A DNA stretch of 64,000 nucleotides from Halomonas denitrificans (GTDB taxonomy: Bacteria > Pseudomonadota > Gammaproteobacteria > Xanthomonadales > Wenzhouxiangellaceae), in NCBI GenBank assembly GCA_019800895.1, contig JAHVKF010000001.1, positions 806,001 to 870,000 on the forward strand, in the 5' to 3' direction. The notes beneath the pieces are model-generated. The model searched no databases, was not told the DNA's origin, and saw only the letters and a list, made by a program, of their open reading frames with translations. Positions 19,205 to 47,903 of the stretch are shown here, in pieces (the stretch's first letter is position 1; every line of letters starts with the position of its first letter). The position numbers were made by a program, and so were the translations under genes.

Positions 19205-19252
19205 CCCCGCTCTTTACTGAATCGCGTTCCAACCTTGGAGCCCACTGCTCTC

Positions 19253-19681
19253 ATGAAAACGTTCAGCGCCAAGTCGCACGAAGTGCGCCGCGAGTGGCTG
19301 CTGGTCGACGCCGAAGGCAAGACCCTCGGCCGACTGTCCAGCGAAATCGCGCGCCGCCTGCGCGGCAAGCACAAGCCGGAATTCACGCCGCACGTCGACA
19401 CCGGCGACTACGTGGTCGTCATCAACGCCGACAAGATCGCGGTCACCGGCCGCAAGATGTCGGACAAGGTGTACTACCACCACACCGGCTACATCGGCAA
19501 CCTGAAGTCCATCACGCTGGAAAAGCTGCTGGACAAGGCTCCGGAGCGCGTCATCCAGAACGCGGTCAAGGGCATGCTGCCGAAGAACCCGCTGGGCCGG
19601 GCGATGATCAAGAAACTGAAGATCTACGCCGGCTCCGAGCACCCGCACGCCGCCCAGCAGCCGCGCGCGCTGGAACTGTAA
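19253..19681 (+). CDS. rplM: 50S ribosomal protein L13
   Basis: L13 is an early-assembling large-subunit protein. The 142-residue length is exact for the family, and [38 protein letters not shown] and [11 protein letters not shown] are hallmark segments. The ATG at 19253 is preferred over an upstream ATG at 19235 because MKTFSAK is the family N-terminus. It is followed by rpsI after 19 bases, the universal pair. Confidence 0.98.
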
Positions 19682-19700: not shown

Positions 19701-20093
19701 ATGGCAACCGAACAGTTTTACGGAACCGGCCGCCGCAAGACCTCGACCGCTCGAGTGTTCCTGCGTCGCGGCACCGGCCAGATCATGGTCAACCAGAAGC
19801 CGCTCGACGAGTTCTTCGGCCGCGAAACCGCCCGCATGATCGCGCGGCAGCCGCTGGAACTGGTCGAACTGGCCGACAAGTTCGACATCTACGCCACCGT
19901 GACCGGTGGCGGCACCACGGGCCAGGCCGGCGCACTGCGCCTCGGCGTGTCCCGTGCGCTGACCGAGTACGACGAGAACCTGCGCGGCGAACTGCGCAAG
20001 GCCGGCTTCCTGACTCGCGACGCACGTGCGGTGGAGCGGAAGAAGATCGGTCTGCACAAGGCACGCAAGGCCACCCAGTACTCCAAGCGCTGA
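19701..20093 (+). CDS. rpsI: 30S ribosomal protein S9
   Basis: S9 is a 130-residue small-subunit protein whose C-terminal tail reaches the P-site t[50 protein letters not shown] and the terminal [11 protein letters not shown] are all canonical, including the final Lys-Arg. Co-transcribed with rplM. Confidence 0.98.
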
Positions 20094-20260: not shown

Positions 20261-20334
20261 TGGGGGATCGTCTAGCGGTAGGACTACGGACTCTGACTCC
20301 GTCAGCGGGGGTTCGAATCCCTCTCCCCCAGCCA
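20261..20334 (+). tRNA. tRNA-Gln (anticodon CTG)
   Basis: A full cloverleaf is readable. The 7-bp acceptor is TGGGGGA with TCCCCCA. The anticodon stem is ACGGA/TCCGT around loop CTCTGAC, with anticodon CTG at 20293-20295. The T-arm is GGGGG-TTCGAAT-CCCTC, and GCCA is encoded at the 3' end. It decodes CAG. It lies 167 bases after rpsI and is followed by a strong terminator. The last 18 bases recur in inverted orientation four times downstream. Confidence 0.97.
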
Positions 20335-20345
20335 CAAAAAAGTAC

Positions 20346-20371
20346 AGCCCGGCTCCCGCCGGGCTTTTTTT
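20346..20371 (+). terminator. Rho-independent terminator of tRNA-Gln
   Basis: AGCCCGGC and GCCGGGCT form an 8-bp perfect stem with a TCCC loop, followed by a run of seven T. The flanking A-run and T-run, and the tRNA tail with its inverted copy, extend the pairing (20317-20340 with 20366-20390), so the element may terminate transcription from both directions. Confidence 0.92.
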
Positions 20372-20512
20372 GTGGCTGGGGGAGAGGGATCGATGCAAGC
20401 GCGAAGCGCGCTGCTACCCGAGCGCAGCGAGGGCAAACCGCAGCGAAGCGGCGGCGCAGTCCATCCCACCGTCAAGAAAGCGCTTGGTCCGAGAGGCCAC
20501 AAGCCCAGACCA

Positions 20513-20536
20513 GCCCGGCACTGCCGGGCATTTTTT
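20513..20536 (+). terminator. Terminator closing array unit 1
   Basis: GCCCGGC, an ACT loop and GCCGGGC are followed by A and six T. The same hairpin is present at the end of the next unit, showing that the duplicated unit includes a terminator. Confidence 0.85.
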
Positions 20537-20676
20537 ATGCGCGTTGGCTGGGGGAGAGGGATCGATGCAAGCGCGAAGCGCGCTGCTACCCGAGCGCCAG
20601 CGAGGGCAAGCCGAAGCGAAGCTGCGGCGCAGTCCATCCCACGCGTTACGAAACGGTTTGGTCGAGAGGCCACCGC

Positions 20677-20698
20677 CCCGGCACTGCCGGGCATTTTT
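20677..20698 (+). terminator. Terminator closing array unit 2
   Basis: CCCGGC-ACT-GCCGGG stem-loop followed by CATTTTTTA, a near-exact copy of the hairpin at 20513-20536. Confidence 0.85.
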
Positions 20699-20975
20699 TA
20701 TGCGCGTTGGCTGGGGGAGAGGGATCGATGCAAGGGAGCTTAGCGACCGCTGCCACCCGAGCGCAGCGAGGGCAAGCCGCAGCGAAGCGAAGGCGCAGTC
20801 CATCCCACCCGTGACGCAATGCTCGGCACGGAAAGAGCGATCCGTCGACCGCCTGAGTCGCCTGCGTGCCGCGCTTTCAGCGGGCTGCGGGAGAGGGATC
20901 GATGCAAGGGAGCGAAGCGAGGGCAAGCCGTAGCGTAGATGCGGCGAAGTCCATCCGAACCGTGAAAGGCCAATC

Positions 20976-20999
20976 GCCTGCATGGCAGGCTCCCACAGG
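20976..20999 (-). repeat. REP-like element (TGTGGGAGC family), minus orientation
   Basis: On the minus strand this reads CCTGTGGGAGCCTGCCATGC, with a short internal palindrome. It faces the copy at 21035-21061, forming an inverted pair between the tRNA array and the next gene. Confidence 0.65.
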
Positions 21000-21094: not shown

Positions 21095-21913
21095 TCAGCT
21101 GCGCCGGAAGCGCAGCGCGAGCACCGCCACCGCCAGTACCAGCAGGACCATCCCCCACCCCCGCATGGCCGGCACCGGCTCGGCCTCCGGCAACACCAGG
21201 GGCTCGAAGTCGACGACCAGCTGCGGCGTCAGCGCCGCGTTCTCGCGGCTCCCGATCCGGCGAGCGTTCTGCGGATTGCCTTCCTCGCCGATCAGGATCC
21301 AGCCGAAGTTCTGCCCGGGATCGTCGACCCACTGCTGGACATCGTCGACCAGGCCGGGCGCGGTGACGAAGGTCACCGGGCCGGTGCCGGAGCCGACCGG
21401 CGCGGTCGAGGACGCGGCGGCCGCGTAGTCGCCGCCGGGCGAGGACCAGGGGACCGTATCGAACTCTCGATGCAGCCAGGTGGCGTCCGGTGCGACCGCC
21501 GGCGCGCCTGCACCGCCCGCTCCCTGCGCCACGGAACCCCCCTCGCCCCAGTCGGCCAGTACGCGGTGCAGCGCCGCATCGAAGCCGGTCGCACCGGGCG
21601 GTACCAGGTCAACCTCGAGCGTGAGTTCGACGCTGTTGACTACAGAACCCGGCGGAATCGCGGACAGATCGAAGCGCATCAGGGCGCGCCGACGCACGTT
21701 TCCGGCATTGACCCCGGTACGGCCGAAAAACAGGTTCGGACCGGCACCGTTCGACAGGTCGCCGGCCGCGCGCTCGTACAGCGTGTTGTCGCGATCGGGG
21801 GCCACGGTGAGCGTGTCGCCGTACACGCTCGACGCGGCGAACGGGACCATCGCTGCCAGCGCAAGCCGCACGAACGGTCGGAGAGAAAAGCGGAAGCCCG
21901 GAGATCGAAACAT
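21095..21913 (-). CDS. DNRLRE-type surface protein with IPTL/PEP-CTERM-like sorting tail
   Basis: This 272-residue exported protein has a signal peptide (LALAAMVPFAASSVYG) and a beta-rich domain resembling the DNRLRE family, with DNTLYERAAGDLSNGAGPN, RRALMRFDLSAIPPGS and a long VELTLEVD strand. The C-terminus is PVPAMRGWGMVLLVLAVAV followed by LALRFRRS. That is a short Pro/Trp-Gly motif, one hydrophobic helix and an Arg cluster, the architecture of IPTL-CTERM/PEP-CTERM sorting signals. It would therefore be processed by an exosortase-like or rhombosortase-like system and displayed or secreted. I chose the ATG at 21913 because GAGG sits 8 bases upstream; a GTG nine bases earlier overlaps that ribosome binding site. 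It is divergent from the DUF1800 gene. The function is unknown. Confidence 0.78.
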   Translation of the reverse strand: MFRSPGFRFSLRPFVRLALAAMVPFAASSVYGDTLTVAPDRDNTLYERAAGDLSNGAGPNLFFGRTGVNAGNVRRRALMRFDLSAIPPGSVVNSVELTLEVDLVPPGATGFDAALHRVLADWGEGGSVAQGAGGAGAPAVAPDATWLHREFDTVPWSSPGGDYAAAASSTAPVGSGTGPVTFVTAPGLVDDVQQWVDDPGQNFGWILIGEEGNPQNARRIGSRENAALTPQLVVDFEPLVLPEAEPVPAMRGWGMVLLVLAVAVLALRFRRS

Positions 21914-21988
21914 GTGACGCACCTCAAGATTCGTGATCGATTACGCGGAGTCTCTCCGCAAACCCGTGAAAAATCGAAGGTTTCGAGA

Positions 21989-47402: not shown

Positions 47403-47903
47403 CTACCGGATCGGCTCGCCGAATCGGCCTTCGAAGTCGTCATTCGTTCCCCAATCCGCGGGCAAGTCACCGCGTTCGATATAGCGATGAATCGATGAAT
47501 GCGGCCAGTCCGAGGCACGCTCGACGTACCCGTGCTTCACCGGATTGAAATGGATGTAGTCGCAATGAGCTTGCAGGTCGGCGTCGTTGCGGATCGTGTG
47601 TTCCCAGTACCGCGATTGCCAAGGTGATCCTCTGCCGCCGATCCGCCGAGTGAACCCCTTCTTGATCTCCTGCCAGAGCTTCGGGTAATCGTCGTTCTCA
47701 TCGCGCATTTCGATCAACGCATGAAGATGGTCGGGTAGAACGACGACCGCGAGGACCTGATGAGGCACGCGCTCAGCGGCGCGTCTCCAGGAAACGCGGA
47801 GTGCTGCGACCTGTCGAGTCAGCAGATCGGACGATCGATTCCGCAGCGTGACCGTGAAGAAGTACGTGCCGCCCCGAAGCCTGTTCCGTCGGTAGTTGAC
47901 CAT
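47403..47903 (-). CDS. REP-associated tyrosine transposase (RAYT, Y1/HUH)
   Basis: This 166-residue single-strand transposase of the IS200/Y1 superfamily has RGGTYFFTVTLRNR at the N-terminus, the HUH metal motif LPDHLHALIEM (about residues 57-67), SPWQSRYWEHTIRND in the middle and the catalytic-tyrosine helix HCDYIHFNPVKHGYV (about 113-127). These are standard RAYT landmarks. It is bracketed by REP elements on both sides (47283-47367 and 47910-47940). RAYTs are thought to be domesticated and to spread REPs in trans. The gene looks intact. Confidence 0.92.
   Translation of the reverse strand: MVNYRRNRLRGGTYFFTVTLRNRSSDLLTRQVAALRVSWRRAAERVPHQVLAVVVLPDHLHALIEMRDENDDYPKLWQEIKKGFTRRIGGRGSPWQSRYWEHTIRNDADLQAHCDYIHFNPVKHGYVERASDWPHSSIHRYIERGDLPADWGTNDDFEGRFGEPIR

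Follow-up and report, generated by a model that had tools for sequence, protein, structure and literature searches.

Our analysis indicates that the repeat array behind tRNA-Gln(CTG) in the window, the whole 64,000-nucleotide stretch of DNA that was analysed, probably belongs, in decayed form, to a family of repeats that accompany tRNA genes across bacteria and whose known case is rtT of E. coli tyrT/tyrV. Units of this family have a common anatomy, with a covarying core that interrupts tRNA copies at one position in the T-loop and is followed by the tail of the host gene, and cores are more alike within a genome than between genomes. They may be processed from tRNA transcripts, probably function as RNA, and may spread from one tRNA gene to another. 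The array consists of the following features, with bit scores from two covariance models, R1 and R2, described below:

20261..20334, + strand: tRNA-Gln(CTG) (ARAGORN; Rfam tRNA 60.8 bits), the host gene of the array; copied tail 20317-20334
20335..20372, no strand: palindromic leader and two-way terminator, running on into the inverted tail; hairpin 20346-20365
20373..20390, + strand: unit 1, inverted tRNA tail, 18/18
20386..20469, + strand: unit 1, core; R1 17.2 bits (background 18.7), R2 26.1 bits (best unrelated window match 20.0)
20513..20536, + strand: unit 1, terminator; hairpin 20513-20529
20545..20562, + strand: unit 2, inverted tRNA tail, 18/18
20558..20642, + strand: unit 2, core; R1 22.3 bits (R1 contains no Gln unit), R2 28.9 bits (unit 2 is a training member of R2)
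20677..20698, + strand: unit 2, terminator; hairpin 20677-20691
20708..20725, + strand: unit 3, inverted tRNA tail, 18/18
20721..20808, + strand: unit 3, core; R1 17.3 bits, not above the background of 18.7, R2 26.8 bits
20883..20899, + strand: unit 4, inverted tRNA tail, 16/17
20908..20996, + strand: unit 4, core remnant; direct repeat D2, 82% over 56 nt (20910-20965); R2 13.6 bits, within background

The initial annotation had described four diverged units spaced by about 170 nt, each opening with an inverted tRNA-Gln tail and two sharing a terminator, and we confirmed all three points. Unit starts lie 172, 163, and 174 nt apart; the inverted tail is exact over 18/18 nt at 20373, 20545, and 20708 and matches at 16/17 at 20883; and the inner terminators lie inside 63-nt copies that are 97% identical. 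The tRNA tail, leader, terminator, and first inverted tail form a single inverted repeat with perfect 25-nt arms (20317-20341 and 20366-20390), and we found four terminator-like hairpins in the array (20346-20365 on both strands, 20513-20529, and 20677-20691) compared to a shuffle mean of 1.1. On one side of the array are ORFs 19235-19681 and 19701-20093, which we take by eye to be rplM and rpsI; on the other is a convergent ORF on the - strand (21095-21922), whose C-terminus we take to resemble a sorting signal.

The window array shows two elements of an RtT-type architecture, tandem units right behind the tRNA and an inverted host tail at the unit start, and the direct tail to CCA is absent. 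The T-arm pair and direct tail are gone from its units, with only CATCCCAC or a similar remainder in place of the tail, and the exact inverted tail is kept. Used as a DNA query, unit 1 matched only the tRNA-Gln array in its own genome and had matches in 14 of 100 relatives, in four of them (G007, G012, G032, G086) in the terminator part only. Seven loci that we inspected (L005, L006, L007, L011, L012, L014, L015) have a layout with one to three inverted tails behind tRNA-Gln(CTG). Of nine Gln loci compared, seven retain 33-35 of 38-39 pairs of the inverted repeat, the window 30/38, and L006 28/40; the leader sequence of this repeat varies between species yet remains complementary. The Gln locus of G016 (L015) retains the inverted tail, the T-arm words, the core, and most of the direct tail (CATCCCTCTCCACC). 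The window array looks like a decayed RtT-type member that has lost the direct T-arm and tail and is left with the inverted tail, and it is borderline by model score: its first three cores reach 17.2, 22.3, and 17.3 bits with R1 against a background of 18.7, and 26.1, 28.9, and 26.8 bits against 20.0 for the next match with R2, whose training set contains one of the three along with Gln units from relatives.

Units across the family follow a common order: a terminator; an inverted T-arm and/or tail (GATTCGAACC or GATGAGAACC); the T-arm 5' strand GGTTCGA; the core; and ATCC with the remaining tail. The core spans ~40-105 nt with two to four hairpins, and the tail resumes from nt 59. Units in Gemmatimonadota have a direct copy of the variable arm and T-arm where others have the inverted part. 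An inverted tail is detectable (score of at least 8) in only 40/92 units, and it is specific to the unit's own tRNA, with a score of at least 9 in 25/92 units versus 115/6338 tests with other isotypes.

The core structure comprises 24 pairs, with 88.8% of the cells of alignment A1 paired compared to 73.7% after shuffling (0/500 shuffles as high) and at most 41.6% when slid along the alignment; it was drawn by hand on A1 rows and counted on the same alignment, and the slid controls are thus partly favoured. Both sides change in 17/24 core pairs. In a second alignment, made of R1 matches and fitted to the structure, 90.8% of cells are paired, and automatic folding of mixed alignments gave one short stem each and no more. 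G-U and A-C mismatches number 44 and 32 in stems, where column make-up predicts 113 and 137, and 19 and 16 in the inverted arm, a small strand bias that would fall short of proving selection as RNA.

R1 was built from A1 (18 rows, one of them E. coli rtT and none a Gln unit), and R2 includes one window unit and Gln units of relatives in its training set. In 90 hand-chosen loci R1 gave 137 matches; these cover the remaining E. coli copies as well as loci of Gammaproteobacteria, Gemmatimonadota, and some Bacteroidota. In the window's own genome, with 150 of 7098 first-look candidates scored, R1 gave 18 matches at E <= 0.016, every one of which falls at one of six tRNA loci (Glu-TTC, Ser-GGA, Ser-TGA, Ser-CGA, Thr-CGT, and Arg-ACG). 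We considered a repeat dispersed away from tRNAs and found none among these matches. Three weaker matches away from the six loci (E 0.06 to 0.48) look like background. The Gln units are absent from the 21 own-genome matches listed with those 150 candidates scored. To that extent the search covers in part the refuting condition named in the initial annotation, units far from tRNA genes.

We found that the tail following the core is that of the host gene. Among 61 R2 matches, 56 have a same-strand tRNA in front of them, 54 within 350 nt. At 39 of these 56, at least 16 of the 17 tail nt that follow the core agree with the host tRNA, compared to 0/2262 tests with other isotypes, in a sample that represents the 49 best-scoring loci of two genome searches rather than a random draw, that leaves out 20 further matches in pattern-picked loci, and in which part of the loci trained R2, a model that ends three nt into the tail. 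At a threshold of at least 14/17 the counts are 43/56 and 6/2262, and the other 13 core matches have a tail identity under 14/17 (for example L302, L327, and L350). Five R2 matches have no tRNA in front; two of them (L294 and L345) lie behind tmRNA (ssrA) and carry an exact 18-nt tmRNA tail, indicating that the host need not be a tRNA. Hosts are Gln, Ser, Thr, Arg, and Glu here, and Lys, Pro, Cys, Met, and tmRNA elsewhere. The Rfam RtT loci follow the same rule: own-tail copies are present at 16/20 of those fetched (15 exact over 17 nt, one with two differences; hosts Ser, Gln, and Tyr).

The core also has a fixed position relative to the tRNA. At 13 loci, 16 tRNA copies (out of 41 rows listed) can be aligned from nt 1 onward, and the core interrupts each of them at GGTTCGA^ATCC (nt 58/59); their alignment scores range between 38 of 73 and 75 of 75 nt. 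Among them are, from Wenzhouxiangellaceae, Arg-CCG and three Ser tRNAs; others are Ser of L177, Gln-TTG of G221, and Arg-CCG of L268. Interrupted copies in nine loci precede an intact copy and miss the last tail nucleotides. Copies of tRNA-Cys(GCA) with the core in the T-loop occur in L184, L192, and L214, all Bacteroidia or Bacteroidales, and in L248 and L277. A copy of tRNA-Ser(CGA) in the window's own genome (L085:1510-1800, - strand) carries the core in the D-loop instead, at GGTCGA^ATGC, a sequence close to that of the T-loop site; there is no loss or doubling at the bond, and the copy continues for 14 nt before it diverges. This placement at a look-alike argues for insertion by sequence rather than for a relic of T-arm function. 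As regards local arrangement, the core starts ~80-150 nt before the start of the intact tRNA-Cys at all five Cys loci, and in L184, L192, and L214 a short tail folds directly back into an inverted T-arm.

Tail copies are also found behind other tRNAs of the same genomes. Within 600 nt downstream, 8/43 tRNAs in the window's own genome and 8/42 in G017 have a copy of their own tail, direct at six and inverted at five in each genome. An inverted own tail scoring at least 12 lies within this distance of 5/43 own-genome tRNAs versus 14/1806 tests with foreign tails; over the own genome and G017, foreign tails reach such scores in 14 to 25 out of 1722-1806 tests, which include serine tRNAs with shared tails. 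Chance is excluded as the source of the inverted own-tail copies. The direct copies are mostly 17-19 nt long and start at the T-loop, and they occur at Ser, Thr, Arg, Glu, and Phe tRNAs. By eye, terminator hairpins lie behind many tail copies at other loci. The own-genome tRNA-Phe(GAA) units (L062 / L096) contain GAACCGCC, GGTTAGATGG, a 17-nt direct tail, and a differing core, which is possibly a second core type. At tRNA-Arg(CCG) of G017 (L130), the second downstream unit stops after its inverted T-arm and runs into a putative insertion sequence.

R2 matches occur in 38/43 genomes of Wenzhouxiangellaceae and 44/398 Pseudomonadota genomes, the own genome counted in both, and in 7/11 genomes behind DNA-pattern loci, where the loci with a named taxon are Bacteroidota or Gemmatimonadota; some of the matched genomes had supplied training units, and the matches in relatives include members of the training set. 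The DNA pattern itself, GTTCGAACCGAGN{6,20}CGAGCTC, is found at at least 117 loci in a named genome collection. The 142 matches listed divide as follows: 72 stand no more than 500 nt behind a tRNA or tmRNA on the same strand, 11 precede one by up to 700 nt, 15 are close to the start of a contig or locus, and 44 are elsewhere; those in, for example, Nocardia and Cohnella are taken to be chance. The Rfam RtT model (RF00391) matches 26/143 Gammaproteobacteria at E <= 0.001, seven of them above its cut-off; it has no match at E <= 0.001 in the window's own genome, where the curated cut-off of 45 bits is not reached, and it fails to reach the other-phylum loci that we tried. In the window, an Rfam scan at gathering scores returned tRNA alone. 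As for a known RNA family other than RtT, Rfam scans of the window and 17 loci identified tRNA and, in E. coli, RtT, with all other families below their cut-offs. A hammerhead ribozyme, suggested by the motif AUGAG..CGAA, was rejected: no such family is among the listed matches at E <= 1, and the motif is in keeping with the RtT tandem GA instead.

Cores resemble each other within genomes. In 24 genome-tRNA combinations from nine genomes, with units containing N or more than two tail differences dropped, core likeness is 0.759 for different tRNAs of one genome (30 pairs), 0.702 for the same tRNA in different genomes (17), and 0.672 for neither (229). None of 2000 label shuffles reaches the within-genome value, and the best partner is in the same genome for 12/22. 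These data suggest that tRNA genes exchange cores, by movement or by mutual conversion, and that the tails stay with the host. We propose that a unit would be a copy of the host tRNA gene, in most cases incomplete, into which a structured core of ~40-105 nt is placed in the T-loop, at the bond of nt 58 and 59 (GGTTCGA^ATCC). Downstream units would have this copy reduced to T-arm and tail, often behind an inverted T-arm/tail copy and a terminator, and units would multiply through tandem duplication. They would be transcribed as a tRNA trailer, would fold into a hairpin cluster closed by the inverted arm and tail, and may be cut out by tRNA 3'-end processing. Within a genome the core would pass from tRNA to tRNA, landing at the T-loop consensus, with each copy keeping the tail of its new host. 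As to the mover, we favour the guess of template switching at GGTTCGA and ATCC, short words held in common.

The units likely have a putative RNA function, to judge from the covarying core, the annotated end of the E. coli RNA, and published observations on RtT. The annotated E. coli RttR RNA terminates exactly at the CCA of the copied tail. According to these publications, RtT contains a tandem GA motif (PMC7657543), RtT-family RNAs are named in Pasteurellaceae and Thioalkalivibrio (PMC4986893, PMC8092127), Thioalkalivibrio RtT is listed with the RNAs that are upregulated in the cold (PMC8092127), and amino-acid limitation is linked to RtT (PMC4986893). A broader proposal, to which we give even odds, is that T-loop inserts in at least three phyla are a folded RNA module that would enter tRNA or tmRNA copies at nt 58/59, take on the host tail, copy itself between tRNAs, and be released with a tRNA-like 3' end, with rtT as one local case.

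Elements of the IS200/IS605 type make no target duplication, contain hairpins, and use a fixed landing sequence. The cores might accordingly be tiny elements of this type moved by a Y1 transposase, which we regard as quite improbable. Insertion without target duplication at GGT(T)CGA^AT and a hairpin-rich core are as such a mover would leave them, and Y1 family proteins are present in 7/13 genomes tested, including the window's own (three matches, best 35.6 bits). Y1 is disfavoured by the other six core-bearing genomes, among them G409, G573, and G604 with tandem units, which have no match at E <= 0.001, some of the 13 being incomplete assemblies. Separately, the window contains a weak Y1_Tnp (PF01797) match at 47586-47840 on the - strand (21.2 bits, below cut-off). 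Of the three origins suggested in the initial annotation, a tRNA-targeting non-autonomous element comes closest to the mobile core that we favour; the idea of a layout special to inversion or to tRNA-Gln does not survive the direct tail copies at Ser, Thr, Arg, Glu, and Phe tRNAs.

Another suggested origin was repeated fold-back duplication, and we consider it unlikely that the array is functionless debris, left when replication folded back (template switch) at the terminator hairpin and duplicated the tRNA end. Such an event may account for the inverted arm: a single long inverted repeat runs from the tail through leader and terminator to the inverted tail, the leader is species-variable but complementary, there is little G-U bias, and template switching can make and maintain hairpins with paired changes (PMC8794818). 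It gives no account of a conserved, homologous core at many tRNAs in several phyla or of its exact T-loop position in tRNA copies. The third, a terminator array insulating the tRNA from convergent or read-through transcription, agrees with three + strand terminator-like sites, one of them two-way, with the - strand ORF 21095-21922 that faces the array, and with the hairpins seen by eye behind many tail copies elsewhere. It explains the terminators only, leaving the core, the tail rule, and the core-bearing tRNA copies upstream of an intact gene, and we hold it to be rather improbable as an explanation of the whole. tRNA and tmRNA genes are favourite sites of tyrosine integrases, and tail copies of 17-19 nt from T-loop to CCA at both kinds of gene could each be an attR left by an integrative element that uses the tRNA 3' end. 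We judge this very improbable given the inverted copies, the like core before the tails, the T-arm sequence before the core, tRNA copies interrupted inside the T-loop, and units too short for an integrase gene. The initial annotation had likewise set the array apart from ordinary tRNA integration remnants, and this stands: the window copies are inverted only, with no direct tail at the far end.

RtT repeats are known, and their breadth, host-tail rule, and T-loop position would appear to be unreported in the literature searched. We found no account there of host-specific tails or of the T-loop position of such repeats, in sources available in part and with the original 1991 rtT and older tyrT papers outside the search. 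The passages of PMC4986893 and PMC8092127 on RtT RNAs of Pasteurellaceae and Thioalkalivibrio mention neither. Also in support of an RNA function, a 175-bp VNTR at the rtT RNA is given in the insertion/deletion table of a Salmonella comparison (PMC2658671), and attenuator candidates are said to resemble rtT (PMC2965389). Our results turn a curiosity of one E. coli locus into something general and testable, with the core as the insert, T-loop nt 58/59 as the site, the host tail as the rule, and tRNA and tmRNA as the hosts. They raise the questions of whether T-loop-extended tRNA copies are used as RNAs, and of what leads a module to the T-loop in so many tRNAs. For annotation, they warn that tRNA pseudogenes and tail copies need not signal integrated phages.

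Among known systems, P4-type attachment sites at tRNA and tmRNA genes are tail-long direct copies; unlike these, the units described here have inverted arms, a core inside the T-loop, and no room for an integrase. Palindromic elements derived from IS200/IS605, and REP/BIME, are short, rich in hairpins, and without target duplication; the present units differ from them in having the tRNA T-loop as their landing site and in the lack of a Y1 match in 6/13 genomes, some incomplete. The closest counterpart is rtT of E. coli tyrT/tyrV (178-nt units; RttR RNA; Rfam RtT, RF00391), whose repeats have to our knowledge been unexplained since the 1970s. Like the window's family, it consists of tandem units behind a tRNA with a tail copy from T-loop to CCA, an inverted GGGGAAGGAT arm, GGTTCGA before the core, and the same order of hairpins, including CCCGAAGGG, and its repeats align with units of that family. 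The window units differ from E. coli rtT in keeping the inverted tail only.
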